Assembly: GCA_030528625.1 (NCBI GenBank) | Contig: JAUMYN010000001.1 | Coordinates: 372,001-436,000 of the forward strand | DNA: 64,000 bases | Direction of reading: 5' to 3' | From: Candidatus Saccharimonadota bacterium | GTDB taxonomy: Bacteria > Patescibacteriota > Saccharimonadia > Saccharimonadales > Saccharimonadaceae | Part shown: positions 42,515 through 48,957 of the stretch, one piece after another | Numbering within the stretch: the first letter of the stretch is position 1 | Layout of the letters: the number at the start of each line of letters is the position of its first letter | Notes under the pieces: generated by a model | Database searches by the model: none | Told to the model about the DNA's origin: nothing | What the model saw: only the letters and a program-made list of their open reading frames with translations | Made by a program: the position numbers and the translations under genes

Positions 42515-43483
42515 CTAGCCGAACATCGCCAGCATCGCCGCCAGCGTATCGTAATGAATCGCCTCAGCGCGTTCGCCGATCAGCACCAACTTCACGGCCT
42601 CATCCGACCGCCCGGCCGTAATGTCAAGCTGCGTCGGCGTTGCCTCCAAATGCCGCCGCGCGCCCGTCTCATCCACAAAACAACCCTTCATCCGCCTGAG
42701 GCCATATGACGCAAACAACTCCGGCCACAGCGCTTGATAGGCGGCCTCGCTGTTCCTCAGGCCCGACACGTCCACCACACTATACGACGGATTGTCCGGC
42801 ACTGCCAGCTCGCCATCATACTCATCAAAAAACCGCAGCAGCCCCGACGGCGGTGTCATCAGACCAAGGTCAAACCGCCCGTACGGCGCACTCACAATCC
42901 GCCCGTAGGGCAGGGCAGCCCGCCGCGCCTCATACGCAGCGCGTTCATCATCCCGCAGCAAATCCTCTTTCGTCACCAGCACCATATCCGCCGCCTGTAG
43001 CTCCACTTCGTGCGCTGGCTCCACGCCGTGTAAAATCTCATGTGCATCAATCACATACCAACTTTGCATCAACTCATAGCGCTCAAACATCTTGGCGCTA
43101 ATTAGCCGCTCCACCAAATTCATCGTCCGCGCCACGCCCGTCGCCTCGATGAACACCGGTGCCGCCGAATAACGACTAAAATCCATCAGCATTTTCGTCA
43201 GCGCGTCCTCCGACCCGCAGCACACACAGTCGCCGCTCAAAGTTGTCACCAAATCCGCCAGTCCCTCCAGTCGATAGCCGTCAACATTTTCATTGGCAAA
43301 CTCATTTTCAATGACGCGCGCGCCCTGAAACGCTGGGCAGCGCAGCAAGTATTCCAAGACACTGGTTTTACCAGCCCCCAGCGACCCATTGAGCAAATAC
43401 AGCGGCACTTTATCAACGATCGCTCGAGAATCATCGAACGCCGCATTCATGCTAAATTCCAGATCATCATCGCGCTTCGCCAT
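42515..43483 (-). CDS. COG0523 (CobW/ZigA-like) GTPase, first copy
   Basis: The 322-residue G3E GTPase has Walker A GSLGAGKT at 33-40, the ENEFANENVD segment, and the family's metal-binding CVCC motif at 86-89, with VTKEDLL near 157 resembling the guanine motif. COG0523 proteins deliver zinc or cobalt to client enzymes. Residues 1-22 form a leader-like acidic extension. TATACT ends 6 nt before the ATG, shared back-to-back with pth. A second copy lies at 46463. Confidence 0.88.
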   Translation of the reverse strand: MAKRDDDLEFSMNAAFDDSRAIVDKVPLYLLNGSLGAGKTSVLEYLLRCPAFQGARVIENEFANENVDGYRLEGLADLVTTLSGDCVCCGSEDALTKMLMDFSRYSAAPVFIEATGVARTMNLVERLISAKMFERYELMQSWYVIDAHEILHGVEPAHEVELQAADMVLVTKEDLLRDDERAAYEARRAALPYGRIVSAPYGRFDLGLMTPPSGLLRFFDEYDGELAVPDNPSYSVVDVSGLRNSEAAYQALWPELFASYGLRRMKGCFVDETGARRHLEATPTQLDITAGRSDEAVKLVLIGERAEAIHYDTLAAMLAMFG

Positions 43484-43489
43484 GCATCT

Positions 43490-43512
43490 AGTATAGCAAT
43501 TGATGCTATACT
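43490..43512. promoter_or_regulatory. Divergent promoters of COG0523 gene and pth
   Basis: Two -10 hexamers (AGTATA on the plus strand for the leftward gene, TATACT for the rightward gene) form 9-bp inverted arms TAGTATAGC/GCTATACTA around seven bases. Each is 6 nt from its start codon. Whether the symmetry is also an operator is unclear. Confidence 0.6.
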
Positions 43513-43518
43513 AAGGCT

Positions 43519-44082
43519 ATGAAAATTATTTTTGCCTTTGGCAATCCTGGCGTAAATTATTCCAACACTCGGCACAATGTCGGGTTCATGGCGGTTGATC
43601 TGACGGCTCGCCGACACAACGCGCGCTTCGCCATTAAACACAAGTTCTTTTCTGAAATTGCCGAGCTTTCAGTTGATAACGAAAAGGTGCTACTCGTCAA
43701 ACCAACTACCTACTACAACGAGGTTGGCAGGCCAGCCCGAGTATTGATGGACTTTTACAACGTGGCTCCGGATAATTTCTTGATCATTCATGATGATCTC
43801 GCGCTGCCGTTTGGCACGTTGCGCATTCGCCAAGGTGGACAACATGGCGGCAATAATGGCCTGAAGTCGCTCTCGGCGCATCTGCCGGCGGCGTTTTGGC
43901 GGCTACGCATCGGTATCTTGAGCGCCCAGCGCAACCAAATGCCAGACGCTGATTTCGTACTCGGCCGTTTTACACCCGACGAACAAACCACCCTGCAAAC
44001 CTGTATCATGCCAGCGGCGCGTGACTACATTGATCATTTCATCAAGGGAACGATCCATGCCGACACCACCACAACCTGCTAA
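43519..44082 (+). CDS. pth: Peptidyl-tRNA hydrolase
   Basis: The 187-residue protein has the Pth signatures FGNPGVNYSNTRHNVGFMAVD (catalytic His), KPTTYYNEVG and HDDLALPFGTLRIRQGGQHGGNNGLKS. It hydrolyses peptidyl-tRNA released from ribosomes. TATACT ends 6 nt before the ATG. Its last 26 bases overlap the next gene. Confidence 0.96.
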   Translation: MKIIFAFGNPGVNYSNTRHNVGFMAVDLTARRHNARFAIKHKFFSEIAELSVDNEKVLLVKPTTYYNEVGRPARVLMDFYNVAPDNFLIIHDDLALPFGTLRIRQGGQHGGNNGLKSLSAHLPAAFWRLRIGILSAQRNQMPDADFVLGRFTPDEQTTLQTCIMPAARDYIDHFIKGTIHADTTTTC

Positions 44083-45130
44083 CCCCACCGCACGCCGCCG
44101 ACAACGCCGCGCATCCTTTCTTGGTCGACTGGGCCACCTCCGCCAGTTCGCCTGGCTACTCCCCATCGCACTGCCTCTTATCCTCGTCCTATTGTTTCAG
44201 CGCCCCCTGCAATTCTGGCTCTACGCTCATCCGCCGCACACCTGGGGGGCTTTTCTGGCAGCCACTGCACAAGATTTTCTCACCCTGACACTGAGCGTGA
44301 TTGTTGAGGCCACGCCGTTTCTCATTCTCGGCATCGGCCTATCAGCACTCATCCGCCGCTTTGTGCCGCTACACCGCGTGTTGCCGCGCCTGCCAAAAAA
44401 TGCTGTACTGCGCCGCCTTATTTTGTCCAGCCTGGGCTTAGCACTGCCAGTTTGCGAATGCGGTAATGTACCAGTAGCCCGCAGCCTGCTGCGCCACGGT
44501 CTCAGCCCAGCCGACACCATCAGCTTTTTGTTCGCGGCGCCCATTCTCAATCCCATCACCATCATCGCCACGGCCGCTGCGTTTAGCGGCACGCCGCACA
44601 TAGTATGGTGGCGCGTGATCTTTGCGCTCGTCATCGTCCAAGTAGTGGCATTGATTGTCAGCCGGTTACGCTCCGAGCATATCCTACAGCCCGACTTTGC
44701 CGCTCACTGCCACGGGCCAGAAGACCGTTCGCTGGATGCTCTATTTAACTTTAGCCGCCAAGAGTTTTGGCAACTGTTTCGGATGCTAACCTTTGGCGCC
44801 ATGCTGGCCGCCGCCACCCAAGTCTTCATCCCGCGCGACATTATCACCGCGGTGGGCGGCGATCTTATGCTCTCGGTTGTTGCCATGATTCTGCTGGGCT
44901 TTGTGGTATCAATTTGCTCCAGTGTCGACGCCTTTTTTGCGCTAGCCTACACCACAACCTTCCGCCAGGGCGCCCTCCTAGCGTTCTTACTGGCCGGGCC
45001 GATGATTGATATCAAGATGATCGCACTACTCAAAAGCACCTTTACTATGCGCTTTACGGCTATCGTTACGGCGCTGGTGTTTGGTCTTAGTTTACTGATT
45101 GGCGTGGGGGTAAACCTCTATGTGGGCTAA
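44057..45130 (+). CDS. DUF318 (YraQ/ArsP-like) permease
   Basis: The product is 357 residues from an ATG at 44057 preceded by AAGGGA inside the pth gene. There are eight or so membrane helices. The family motif is LALPVCECGNVPVARSLLRHGLSPADTISFLFAAPILNPI, with the Cys-Glu-Cys-Gly sequence seen in this permease group. Related proteins export organoarsenicals or have metal-related roles. It is followed by, and overlaps by 11 bp, a DUF1980 protein, its usual partner. Confidence 0.88.
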   Translation: MPTPPQPANPTARRRQRRASFLGRLGHLRQFAWLLPIALPLILVLLFQRPLQFWLYAHPPHTWGAFLAATAQDFLTLTLSVIVEATPFLILGIGLSALIRRFVPLHRVLPRLPKNAVLRRLILSSLGLALPVCECGNVPVARSLLRHGLSPADTISFLFAAPILNPITIIATAAAFSGTPHIVWWRVIFALVIVQVVALIVSRLRSEHILQPDFAAHCHGPEDRSLDALFNFSRQEFWQLFRMLTFGAMLAAATQVFIPRDIITAVGGDLMLSVVAMILLGFVVSICSSVDAFFALAYTTTFRQGALLAFLLAGPMIDIKMIALLKSTFTMRFTAIVTALVFGLSLLIGVGVNLYVG

Positions 45131-45854
45131 TCTTGCCAAGACCAGCGCCATCGGCCTCATCAGCGGCTATCTCATCTGGCTCTCCGTCAGCGGCGGCCTC
45201 AACATCTACATCCATCCGCGCTACCATTCGTTCACGCTGATCATGGCCGTTCTGGCCGCTGGATTCACGCTCAGCGACTTGTGCTGGCAACTCTGGCGGC
45301 GCTATCGCAAGCGTAGCAGCCTTGCCTGGAGCCGTTCATTAGGCCGCCCCCAACTGCTCAGCCTGATTACTGTCGCTATTGTTTTATTGGGTATCAGCCT
45401 GCCGCCACGACCGCTGTCACTGCACGCCGTGAATCAGCGTGCGCCGGAGCAGCAAAGCTTTATCGCCGAGAGTAACTGCCATCCGCCCGAAACCAACGCG
45501 GCAGGACAAACCCTGCTGTATCGATGGCTTTCGGCCGTGCAAGCCTGCGAACAGCCCGCCGAACTGACTGGCCATAACCTGACGCTGATCGGTTTTATTA
45601 CCGAACGACCGGACAAGCCGGACAGCTTCTGGCTGACCCGTTTTGTCGTCAGTTGCTGCGCGGTCGATTCGACACCTCTCCGTGTAGAAATTATCGCCCC
45701 GCAGTGGCGAGCACGCTATGCGCCAGGGCAATGGCTGCGCGTTAGCGGCACGACCGTCCGCCAGTCCGACGGCAGTATGGTCATCACTAGCGCCACCCTC
45801 ACCCCCATCACCGAACCCGACACGCCATACGAATTTCTGGGCTCGCTTGAATAA
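45120..45854 (+). CDS. DUF1980 / TIGR03943 family membrane protein
   Basis: The 244-residue protein has N-terminal membrane helices (about 8-28, 36-55 and 78-93) and a C-terminal domain with FWLTRFVVSCCAVDSTPLRVEI, GQWLRVSG and the closing DTPYEF, which fits the DUF1980/YcgQ family found with DUF318 permeases. The pair is thought to handle metal ions or act as an exporter; direct function is not known to me. Both genes sit inside the metal-linked stretch. Confidence 0.85.
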   Translation: MWANLAKTSAIGLISGYLIWLSVSGGLNIYIHPRYHSFTLIMAVLAAGFTLSDLCWQLWRRYRKRSSLAWSRSLGRPQLLSLITVAIVLLGISLPPRPLSLHAVNQRAPEQQSFIAESNCHPPETNAAGQTLLYRWLSAVQACEQPAELTGHNLTLIGFITERPDKPDSFWLTRFVVSCCAVDSTPLRVEIIAPQWRARYAPGQWLRVSGTTVRQSDGSMVITSATLTPITEPDTPYEFLGSLE

Positions 45855-45932: not shown

Positions 45933-46466
45933 TTATTCATCATCAGCATTCTGCCACTTTTTCACCGCGCCATTCTCCTGATAGTACTCGTGTCGACGCC
46001 ACTCCTCCATCAAGGACGCGTCCTGCTCCAGCACCGCTAACTCGGCATACAGCTCCTCCAGCCTCATCTCATCAGGATACGCCCCGGTGTCAGAGAAGGG
46101 CGTGCGGCCGCGCCGTTGGCACCACTGATTGAGAAAGTGCAGCCGCTTGGTGCAAATATAGCCCGGCTTGGCACAGTGCAAGCGAAAATCATGCAGCGTC
46201 GCAATCGGCTGCGCTTCGTCGCGATAGGCCTCGCACTTGTACATCACCCAGATCAGCGGCGTAGCAAAGGTCATAGCGTCGCTAATCGTCTGTTGTTGAG
46301 TGCGCAGCGCGTCCAGCGTCGCTCGCGCCGTTGTCGTGTCGCTGCCAGCCAGCTTGGCGCGCATCAACGCACGCTCCGCCTGTGCCAGCTGTTCGCCAAG
46401 GCGCCGATACTCGCCATACATCCGAAGCAGGCGATCAACTGCCATCCGTGTCGACTCGCCGCTCAT
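45933..46466 (-). CDS. Unknown helical protein in the nicotianamine synthase operon
   Basis: The 177-residue protein overlaps the end of the COG0523 gene by four bases (ATGA), so it is co-translated with it. It is mostly helix, with two coiled-coil-like parts (residues 5-65 and 130-165) and a central region holding YKCEAYRDEAQ, HCAKPGYICTKRLHFLNQWC. Four cysteines and several histidines there could bind a metal. No family is recognised. Its place in the operon suggests a role with the metal proteins. Confidence 0.65.
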   Translation of the reverse strand: MSGESTRMAVDRLLRMYGEYRRLGEQLAQAERALMRAKLAGSDTTTARATLDALRTQQQTISDAMTFATPLIWVMYKCEAYRDEAQPIATLHDFRLHCAKPGYICTKRLHFLNQWCQRRGRTPFSDTGAYPDEMRLEELYAELAVLEQDASLMEEWRRHEYYQENGAVKKWQNADDE

Positions 46467-47353
46467 ACTAATATCTCCTCAAGGGTTGCACGGTGTATCA
46501 TATGCGCCGCCGTGCCGATGCAAACGAGTTGACACGGCTCATCGTCACTCGGCGTCACCATGCACTGCCGCGGCGTCGCCTCGACATGATACCGCTGCGT
46601 ACCGTCCGTAAAGCCGCCCTTCAGCCGCCGTAGTCCGTGAGATACCTGCAACACCCGCCAAGCCTCCCGCACTTGCTGTGGACTGAGCGCCATATCCGCC
46701 ACCTGTAGCACCGTATAATTCATATCCGTCTCAGCAAGCGGTGCCGCATCGATCATCAACACCGCCGCCAGCACCTGAGAAGGGCGATAGAGCGCGTTCA
46801 CTCCGAACATCCCATGATCAGCCCACACCACGCTATCAACGCCGCTCGCCGCCAGCATGGCCGTCACCGCCCGACGCTGCTCAGTCGTGATGGCATCGCC
46901 CTTACTGACGATCACTAAGTCGGCTACCTGTAGTTCAGTGCGCATAGGAGGCGACACCAGCGCTGGCTCCGTCTCTAGTGCGTCCAGTACATACAACGAT
47001 TGCGCTAACTCGTAACGCTCCAGAACATCACTCGCCGCCAATTTTTCGATCAGACGCACCGTATTAGCCACGCCGGTCGACTCGATAATCACCGGTCGAT
47101 CGCTCTGCTGAGCAAACTCCTCCAGGAGCCGCACCAGTTCGTCGCCATCATGACAGCAAATACACGCCCCAGCGATGGTCGCCACCTCCTTAGCGCGAGC
47201 CGCCAAGGTCTGCGTATCAACGCTGACTGAGGCAAATTCATTCTCGATCACTCGCGCCTTCCGAAGAAACGGCTGCCGTAGCAAAAAGTCAACCACTGTC
47301 GTCTTGCCAGCCCCCAATGCACCATTTACTAGATAAAGCGACGGTTTTGCCAT
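46463..47353 (-). CDS. COG0523 GTPase, second copy
   Basis: The 296-residue G3E GTPase has Walker A GALGAGKT at 11-18, ENEFASVSVD near 37, the metal motif CICC at 64-67, and VSKGDAIT as guanine-binding segment. It is parallel to the copy at 42515 but lacks that protein's N-terminal extension. It shares one base with the end of the nicotianamine synthase gene, so it belongs to that operon. A zinc chaperone role is inferred from family and context. Confidence 0.88.
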   Translation of the reverse strand: MAKPSLYLVNGALGAGKTTVVDFLLRQPFLRKARVIENEFASVSVDTQTLAARAKEVATIAGACICCHDGDELVRLLEEFAQQSDRPVIIESTGVANTVRLIEKLAASDVLERYELAQSLYVLDALETEPALVSPPMRTELQVADLVIVSKGDAITTEQRRAVTAMLAASGVDSVVWADHGMFGVNALYRPSQVLAAVLMIDAAPLAETDMNYTVLQVADMALSPQQVREAWRVLQVSHGLRRLKGGFTDGTQRYHVEATPRQCMVTPSDDEPCQLVCIGTAAHMIHRATLEEILV

Positions 47354-48135
47354 TAGGACTCCTCCTTGGCATATACGTATACCGAATTTATGATTTCATC
47401 GTGCGGATGATAGGCAACAAGCGGCCTAACCTGCCGCAAGTCGTCCACTGCTAGCGCCGGATAAAGGAGCGATTTGGCGCCAGTTGCCGCCCGTACCACC
47501 AGCCGCCCATCGGACTTCAGAGCCGGCAAGACGTTATCGATAATCCGCTGCTTGACGGCCCGATCACCGCCCGCCAGGCCTGCCACGTAGATCACATCAT
47601 AAGCTTCAAGCGGCAGGGCGATAGTAGCGCCATCATCGGTCAGATTGGCGACTGTCCAGTCCAGTGCTTGAGCCAACGCCGCAGCCAAGTCGGTCGCCTC
47701 AGGATTGCTGTCAATCAGCGTCAATTGCGCTGCCGTCTGCTGCCACAAATACCAACCAGTGAGCGGCAGGGGACCGCTGCCAATCATAGCGACACGCGTC
47801 TCGGTCGTCAACTGTTTACCCGAACCGGCCAGCAGACCGACCTCGCGACGCACTAATTCCTGATAATGAGCGCCGTACCAAAATCGTGCCAGCTCTTTGC
47901 GAGGCTGCTTGGCGCTGATGATACGTCGCGCCCAATAGACCTCCATGGCCGCCTCGGAAGCGGCACAGCGGCACTGTACGTCGCGGCACAGCGACGCGTC
48001 ACACCATGCCGGCAAATTTTGACATCGCACCACCGAGGCTACCAAAGCGGAAAATGCGGCATTCACTGCTGGCGAGGGCGCCACGTCAGGCAATGCCATT
48101 ACCTTCATAATTGCTTGTTCCATGACGACCATCAT
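47353..48135 (-). CDS. Nicotianamine synthase family protein
   Basis: The 260-residue protein matches nicotianamine synthases along its length: FWYGAHYQELVRREVGLL (plant FPYY-NY-L-x3-E), the SAM-binding IGSGPLPLTG at 118-127, AYDVIYVAGLAGGDR, LVVRAATGAKSLLYPAL and the closing YHPHDEIINSV. These enzymes condense aminobutyrate units from SAM into nicotianamine or, in bacteria, opine metallophore precursors that bind Zn, Ni, Co or Fe. An N-terminal cluster of five cysteines (38-57) is unusual. The start could also be an internal ATG. No opine dehydrogenase or exporter is adjacent. It leads an operon with COG0523 and an unknown gene, divergent from a Fur-family regulator. Confidence 0.9.
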   Translation of the reverse strand: MMVVMEQAIMKVMALPDVAPSPAVNAAFSALVASVVRCQNLPAWCDASLCRDVQCRCAASEAAMEVYWARRIISAKQPRKELARFWYGAHYQELVRREVGLLAGSGKQLTTETRVAMIGSGPLPLTGWYLWQQTAAQLTLIDSNPEATDLAAALAQALDWTVANLTDDGATIALPLEAYDVIYVAGLAGGDRAVKQRIIDNVLPALKSDGRLVVRAATGAKSLLYPALAVDDLRQVRPLVAYHPHDEIINSVYVYAKEES

Positions 48136-48152
48136 GACAGACTGCCGTGCCT

Positions 48153-48171
48153 ATTGCAAATTTGTTGCAAT
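48153..48171. promoter_or_regulatory. Perfect 7-5-7 palindrome between metallophore operon and Fur-family gene
   Basis: ATTGCAA (48153-48159), five bases, TTGCAAT (48165-48171) is a perfect inverted repeat of the size of a Fur/Zur box. It overlaps the -35 region (TTGCAA) of the regulator promoter, whose TATACT is at 48178-48183, and lies 18 nt before the operon start on the other strand. The regulator is the obvious candidate to bind it. Confidence 0.65.
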
Positions 48172-48189
48172 AATTGCTATACTTGCAGC

Positions 48190-48603
48190 ATGCATCTGTC
48201 CGCTATTCTATCGGCGCACCACCTTCGCAACACCAAGCCGCGCCAAGCAGTGTTCGCTGCGCTACAGCGCGCCGCCGCGCCGCTCACCATCAGTCACCTT
48301 ATCGCCCAATGTTCCACCATCGATCGCACCAGCATTTATCGCACCTTGCAGCTTTTCACTCGGCACGGCATCGTCTCGGTAGTACCTATCGGCTGGAAGC
48401 GCGCCTATGAGCTAGCCGAACCGTTCATGCCGCATCATCACCATCTACAGTGCACTCGCTGCCGCCGTCTCATCGATATTCAGACACCAGAACTTGAGCA
48501 GCTCATCGCTGCCATTAGCCAGCGGCATCATTTTCAGCCGACCGATCATCATTTCGAAATCAATGGCTTCTGCCGCTCGTGCCAGCACTCAACCACCAAC
48601 TAA
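48190..48603 (+). CDS. Fur-family metal regulator (Zur-like)
   Basis: The 137-residue protein has a winged helix (LRNTKPRQAVFAALQ, then ISHLIAQCSTIDRTSIYRTLQLFTRHGIV) and a dimerisation domain with PHHHHLQCTRC. Structural zinc ligands are Cys88/Cys91 and Cys128/Cys131, as in Fur-family members. TATACT ends 6 nt before the ATG. Divergence from the nicotianamine synthase operon and a palindrome between them suggest it represses that operon when metal is plentiful. Whether it senses zinc or another metal is not decidable here. Confidence 0.88.
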   Translation: MHLSAILSAHHLRNTKPRQAVFAALQRAAAPLTISHLIAQCSTIDRTSIYRTLQLFTRHGIVSVVPIGWKRAYELAEPFMPHHHHLQCTRCRRLIDIQTPELEQLIAAISQRHHFQPTDHHFEINGFCRSCQHSTTN

Positions 48604-48605
48604 AA

Positions 48606-48640
48606 AAGCGCCAGGTAAGGGTGGGCATCACCTGGCGCTT
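48606..48640. terminator. Strong terminator, best on the minus strand
   Basis: An 11-bp perfect stem (48606-48616 with 48630-48640) has TTTTTT following on the minus strand, ending the leftward transcript from 48922. On the plus strand it follows the Fur-family gene with ATTT. Confidence 0.85.
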
Positions 48641-48922
48641 ATTTACCCTTCAACCCACCCGAGCTCACATTTCGCTAGTTGAAGCGTCTGCGGTCAAAAA
48701 CTCCAAAAGACCGGCGCCTGACCAATGGTCAATACCCCTGAGGGTACTCCCGCGAAAAATGGTTCGCCTTTGAAAAAGGGCAGTTAAAGGGGTTAGTATG
48801 CGCGTAACGTTGAACTGCAGAAAGTGGAGGGTAAGAATACTTGCTGCCATTGCGCGCAACCTAACATATAGTTAGAATAGGGGGTATAAGGTGCGTTGGA
48901 TTGAGCCTCAGCTCAACCAATC
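48606..48922 (-). ncRNA. Leftward transcript of about 320 nt, possible ncRNA
   Basis: A perfect consensus promoter and a strong terminator delimit this minus-strand unit. Near its 5' end is the hairpin TTGAGC-tgag-GCTCAA. Further short stems include CTAAC/GTTAG, GCGAA/TTCGC, TACCC/GGGTA and TGACC/GGTCA. A 61-codon frame (48665-48850) from an ATG reads MAASILTLHFLQ and could be translated, but it has no clear ribosome site and resembles nothing I know. I found no match by eye to tmRNA, RNase P, SRP or 6S RNA. Stable RNA is my preferred reading. Confidence 0.5.
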
Positions 48923-48928
48923 AGTGCC

Positions 48929-48957
48929 ATTATAGCAAACATTTGACAAAGTGTCAA
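48929..48957 (-). promoter_or_regulatory. Consensus promoter of the leftward transcript
   Basis: On the minus strand TTGACA (48952-48957), a 17-nt spacer and TATAAT (48929-48934) match consensus at all twelve positions. It is one of the two strongest promoters in the window. Confidence 0.85.

Follow-up and report, generated by a model that had tools for sequence, protein, structure and literature searches.

A nicotianamine synthase family protein with plant-type active-site residues in a putative metal-responsive operon of a Saccharibacteria genome

The stretch of DNA analysed here, referred to as the window (64,000 nucleotides, G000:C3:372001-436000), belongs to the 788-kb genome (G000; 6 contigs, 99.99% complete) of a tiny and probably host-dependent bacterium. 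On a 541-kb contig, amid der, pth, dprA and topA, it carries genes for a nicotianamine synthase (NAS) family protein, a COG0523-type GTPase and an orphan protein, P3, facing a Fur-family gene (Table 1). The NAS stop and the COG0523 start overlap as TAATG, and a 4-bp overlap joins COG0523 to P3; the three genes constitute one translationally coupled operon with NAS first, opposite the Fur-family gene. The NAS reading frame is open to 48135 with an alternative start, ATG, at 48123, which is the likelier of the two because the resulting N-terminus (MEQAI..) aligns with the starts of related proteins. The original prediction of a NAS, COG0523 and Cys/His-protein operon divergent from a Fur-family gene agrees with these overlaps and with the profile scores of the cobW and FUR genes; its range, 47353-48603, takes in NAS and fur, but the operon extends down to 45933.

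Table 1. Positions of the genes and predicted control elements within the window
Feature	Position	Strand	Description
Second COG0523 GTPase	42515..43483	-	42% identical to the operon's COG0523
ArsP_1-type permease, convergent neighbour	44021..45130	+	Pfam ArsP_1 181 bits
TIGR03943/DUF1980 putative permease subunit, neighbour	45120..45854	+	NCBIfam TIGR03943 112 bits, above cut-off
P3, orphan protein	45933..46466	-	177 aa; long helical hairpin and conserved HC-x6-C segment
COG0523/CobW-type GTPase	46463..47353	-	296 aa; Pfam cobW 100.3 bits (cut-off 20.7); CxCC metal-binding motif present as CICC
NAS family protein	47353..48123	-	256 aa from ATG 48123; PF03059
Predicted operator TATTGCAAATTTGTTGCAATA	48152..48172		21-bp palindrome between NAS and fur, common to both
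Likely fur promoter	48154..48183	+	TTGCAA (48154-48159), 18-bp spacer, TATACT (48178-48183); inferred from sequence
Fur-family repressor	48190..48603	+	137 aa; Pfam FUR 65.2 bits (cut-off 23.1); diverges from NAS

Two further elements flank these genes. In the interval between pth and the second COG0523 gene, and immediately upstream of the latter, lies a perfect palindrome, TAGTATAGCA-ATTGA-TGCTATACTA (43489-43513), with TATACT on either strand; the G165 counterpart of this second COG0523 (L010 7042-8022) is located directly downstream of P3. On the minus strand between fur and dprA, positions 48602-48940 hold an unannotated candidate for a conserved non-coding RNA, with a perfect TTGACA-17-TATAAT promoter (48952-48957, 48929-48934), a terminator-like hairpin with T-run (48638-48602), 86% DNA identity with G038 over 389 nt and conserved blocks in G165, G026 and G014; a search of Rfam returned no match at E up to 1.

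The protein encoded at 47353-48123 is a member of the NAS family, as originally predicted. It scores 138.3 bits with Pfam PF03059 (cut-off 27.1), covering profile positions 18-272 of 276, and phmmer against PDB sequences places Methanothermobacter thermonicotianamine synthase (MtNAS) at 9e-14 and CntL at 0.011. The AlphaFold2 model (pLDDT 91.5) presents the predicted NAS fold, a helical N-terminal part followed by a Rossmann SAM domain; its top Foldseek match is MtNAS 3fpe (E 4.5e-15, TM about 0.8, 20% identity), and the best 12 PDB matches are MtNAS and CntL throughout. A barley NAS sequence, which we presume to be correct and treat as a lead only, scores 411 bits with the Pfam NAS model, and the window protein is about 30% identical to this presumed sequence in a full-length alignment. 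In a NAS tree the branches are long, and plant and archaeal affinity are not separated.

The two catalytic residues are in place. The GSGPLPL motif is kept, and E61 and Y87 (numbered from ATG 48123), invariant in all five Saccharibacteria NAS sequences, align gap-free with positions 81 and 107 of 3fpe; the title of PDB entry 3FPG describes an E81Q mutant of MtNAS. In AtNAS1, the exchanges E77Q and Y106F, at the equivalents of MtNAS E81 and Y107, yield inactive enzyme, and activity also needs E73 and the loop 206-VGMD-209, which are conserved in plants and not in microbial NAS-like proteins (PMC10248798). All five Saccharibacteria sequences have a Glu four residues ahead of the catalytic Glu (E57 in the window protein), the spacing of AtNAS1 E73/E77, and all five keep the loop, as LAGGD, LAGRD, LAGSA, LAGQS and LAGED; the window's AGGD is not identical to VGMD, and it is without the four-residue gap of MtNAS. 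In printed alignments MtNAS has Gly at the plant-type Glu position as well as this loop gap, and CntL has Val at the Glu position. By alignment, then, the window NAS carries plant-type residues (E57 and the LAGGD loop) that archaeal MtNAS lacks.

These residues bear on what the enzyme makes. It may be an aminobutyryl transferase with a different product, in which an amine such as glutamate or histidine receives one or two aminobutyrate units, in the manner of MtNAS or CntL. Enzymes that form nicotianamine (NA) have been described in plants, mosses and fungi, and every characterised prokaryotic NAS-like enzyme uses other starters and gives other products (PMC10248798). The identity of only about 30% to the presumed barley sequence points the same way, but E57 and the LAGGD loop match the very features that separate the plant NA-forming enzymes from MtNAS and CntL, and we hold the formation of another product to be a real possibility that falls short of probable.

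The five N-terminal Cys residues of the window NAS had been singled out in the original prediction as unlike the family. Only the last of them, C53, also occurs in G038, G133 and G165, and the G026 protein has no Cys among the five positions; since a single Cys is conserved, the cluster does not characterise the family, and its interpretation as a distinctive metal site was rejected. C53, four residues before E57, aligns with AtNAS1 C69, and a Cys stands there in four of the five Saccharibacteria sequences. In AtNAS1 the C69A exchange is harmless (PMC10248798).

NAS genes are rare in the lineage. They were found in 5 of 295 sampled genomes of the family, and in a phylum-wide sample (n=380), besides G000 and G038, one distant NAS-like protein scored above the cut-off and one below it. 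P3 was found in 6 of the 295 family genomes, one of the six being a weak match; once G000 and G038 are set aside, the remaining 378 genomes of the phylum sample gave no P3 match. In a search of named genomes, the single NAS protein as query returned no match, and an alignment as query returned four, among them two full-length Saccharibacteria records. The distant proteins (L006, L007), from other Patescibacteria families, have low scores and are without the loop; in L006 (1312-3148) a gene for an ATP-grasp ligase resembling D-Ala-D-Ala ligase starts 4 bases after the NAS-like stop. A record of Candidatus Izimaplasma (L038 5926-6444) encodes, immediately behind a FeoB-like gene, a short NAS-like protein of 172 aa that is confined to the SAM domain.

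The search of other Saccharibacteria for the same operon, suggested with the original prediction, recovered NAS, COG0523 and P3 together in G038 and G133, both of the same genus as G000, and in G165. The G026 locus (L005 1501-2841) has NAS and fur but neither COG0523 nor P3; its NAS is divergent, 27% identical to the window's, and occupies the corresponding slot, where the neighbouring Fur gene carries the same operator. In G014 (67% complete) fur diverges from a fused COG0523-P3 gene, and no NAS lies at the locus. The locus is near pth/der and dprA/topA in G000, G038, G165 and G026, and near pth/der in G014; the short contig of G133 has other neighbours. The 541-kb contig, the known gene neighbours and the matching region in other genomes argue that the rare carriage of NAS is no artefact, and the shared chromosomal slot argues for an old residence; we read the distribution as old residence with repeated loss. 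Horizontal transfer by a virus or plasmid was considered and rejected: no relative was found on a viral contig, and plasmid relatives occur only on Halocatena plasmids.

The predicted operator, a palindrome of the form TATTGCAA-N5-TTGCAATA, overlaps the likely fur promoter. G000, G133 and G014 have it in perfect form; the copies in G038, in G026 and ahead of NAS in G165 carry 1-2 mismatches. In G165 fur is unlinked to NAS and is itself preceded by a perfect half-site pair (L024). The element is found ahead of NAS and/or fur in six genomes. A scan of the whole G000 genome gave this as its sole site at up to 2 mismatches. Sites with 3 mismatches occur in G000 at about the level of a reversed-pattern control and were discarded as background; a second site in G038, with 2 mismatches, sits within a gene resembling murD. 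Because G000 has no second site below 3 mismatches, the predicted regulon in this genome would be this locus alone.

To our knowledge the operator resembles a Nur box more than any Zur box. Nicotianamine binds nickel tightly, and the module might be one for nickel, with a Nur-like nickel sensor and a chelator and GTPase that handle this metal. The operator core, TTGCAA-N5-TTGCAA, equals the consensus proposed for the Nur box of Streptomyces, tTGCaa-N5-ttGCAA (PMC3919588), so that zinc cannot be taken for granted as the metal. A box sequence does not by itself tell which metal is sensed, however, and the similarity of the regulator is unspecific: it matches Campylobacter Fur and actinobacterial Zur and Nur alike, it scores 19.9 bits with the NCBIfam Zur model PRK11639 (cut-off 167) and the remaining Fur-family equivalogs are likewise under their cut-offs, so that assignment of a metal from the regulator sequence was rejected as ambiguous. 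The Fur-family motifs HHHHxxC and CxxC...CxxC, together with E74, E103 and H120, are invariant in five relatives; the residue at what we take to be the position of E. coli Fur His33 is not His in the window regulator, a further point against nickel. COG0523 relatives, too, are mostly linked to zinc (PMC2770081, PMC6103462), and on this evidence we judge a nickel module somewhat unlikely.

For P3, profile searches of Pfam and NCBIfam gave no family over the cut-off. The predicted structure (pLDDT 82.6) is helical, and the protein has, besides its HC-x6-C segment, a conserved C-terminal W-R-x-x-E-Y region. No PDB entry matched in a fold search at an E-value of 0.001 or lower; a function drawn from the seryl-tRNA synthetase and TasH entries in that search was rejected, since what is shared is a helical hairpin only (residues 1-66). 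P3 is a neighbour in the operon in four genomes, and its fusion to COG0523 in G014, the best functional clue, suggests that P3 works with the GTPase.

The supply of SAM was assessed by profile searches in the six genomes. The C-terminal and middle domains of SAM synthetase were found in neither G000 nor G038 (10 of 14 control genomes positive) and are present in G133, G165 and G026. MTA/SAH nucleosidase-type PF01048 was found in none of the six (13 controls positive). Because no SAM synthetase was detected in G000, this bacterium would have to import SAM, barring an unrecognised enzyme, and by analogy with the lifestyle of cultured Saccharibacteria (PMC10633639) the source would be a bacterial host. 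Undetected SAM synthetase and MTA nucleosidase in G000, together with the lack of the gene in most genomes of the family, might also indicate that the NAS enzyme is inactive or a decaying relic, but the catalytic residues, the operon overlaps and the operator are intact across relatives that are only 40-47% identical, and we regard decay as very improbable.

Nicotianamine acts inside cells in plants. On balance we lean toward a self-regulated module that, under metal starvation, would turn imported SAM into an NA-type metal ligand for use inside the cell. When metal is plentiful, the metal-bound Fur-family protein on the operator would repress the operon and its own gene; when metal is scarce, the operon would be switched on. 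NAS, by its residues more plant-like than MtNAS or CntL, would then condense aminobutyrate units from SAM, imported presumably from the host or surroundings, to nicotianamine or a close analogue. With less certainty, the chelator may act mainly inside the cell and hold Zn, Ni or a similar metal in exchangeable form when that metal is scarce, so that COG0523 with P3 could load it into a client protein. We favour this intracellular role because the operon includes neither an exporter nor an importer. A more specific version, with plant-type NA from imported SAM as metal donor to COG0523-P3, P3 as the metal-receiving or client-adapter part and the whole forming a one-operon Nur-like regulon, seems to us clearly unlikely to hold in all its parts.

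NAS-like enzymes contribute to the metallophores that S. aureus and P. aeruginosa secrete, and the product of the window operon might likewise be exported, compete for metal with neighbours or, as the original prediction had it, with the host, and be re-imported through an unrecognised transporter. Searches for ZnuA found it in G026 only, leaving five of the six genomes without it, and ZIP was detected in none of the six; another uptake route must therefore exist in G000. The ArsP_1 and TIGR03943 genes, which adjoin the operon in G000 and G038, could encode chelate transporters and thereby offer such a secreted route. They lie outside the control of the operator, however, and are not beside the G165 operon. 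As had been noted originally, no opine dehydrogenase or exporter is in view; the operon holds no exporter, ABC importer or CntM-type dehydrogenase, and the CntM family PF10100 was matched in none of the six genomes, nor in any control genome. Secretion of the product is thus rather unlikely in our estimate.

The operator, the plant-like active-site features, the COG0523-P3 fusion and the missing SAM synthetase go beyond the original prediction. If NA-forming, a plant-like NAS in a Saccharibacteria genome of less than one megabase would widen the range of organisms in which nicotianamine is made; a SAM-consuming chelator together with an undetected SAM synthetase would allow a metabolic reliance on host or neighbour to be tested; and the COG0523-P3 fusion offers a concrete partner for a GTPase family with mostly unknown clients. 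We recognised no report of a NAS gene in Saccharibacteria in the open-licence literature searched, judged by title and abstract. The combination of a NAS-like metallophore with COG0523 is not new in principle, because the two are known to be co-regulated under zinc limitation elsewhere; the novelty appears to lie in the lineage, in a bacterial enzyme with a plant-like active site, in P3 and in the predicted Nur-like control of a single operon.

Compared with known systems, the window NAS shares with the plant and fungal enzymes (class I-III, e.g., AtNAS1) a nearly full-length Pfam NAS match, the catalytic Glu and Tyr, counterparts of C69, E73 and the VGMD loop, and the GSGPLP and C-terminal HP.D..INSV motifs; it differs from them in its low identity (about 30% to the presumed barley sequence) and in its setting in a bacterial operon with COG0523, P3 and Fur. 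MtNAS (3FPE) is the best structural match and has the counterparts E81 and Y107, but has Gly for the plant-type Glu and no four-residue loop. The staphylopine-type cnt operons resemble the window operon in the NAS-like fold of CntL, the predicted SAM aminobutyrate chemistry and the context of metal starvation, whereas the window operon is without their CntM-type dehydrogenase, exporter and ABC importer, and its NAS scores only 15.6 bits with the NCBIfam CntL model (cut-off 350). Zur-regulated COG0523 metallochaperone loci likewise combine a COG0523 protein bearing CxCC with a Fur-family regulator and an overlapping operator; the window locus adds NAS, P3 and a Nur-like box, in a genome without detected ZnuA or ZIP. 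With the Streptomyces Nur regulon, finally, the locus shares the identical operator core, but the predicted targets are NAS, COG0523 and P3 rather than sodF and nik, and the regulator is not specifically closest to Nur.
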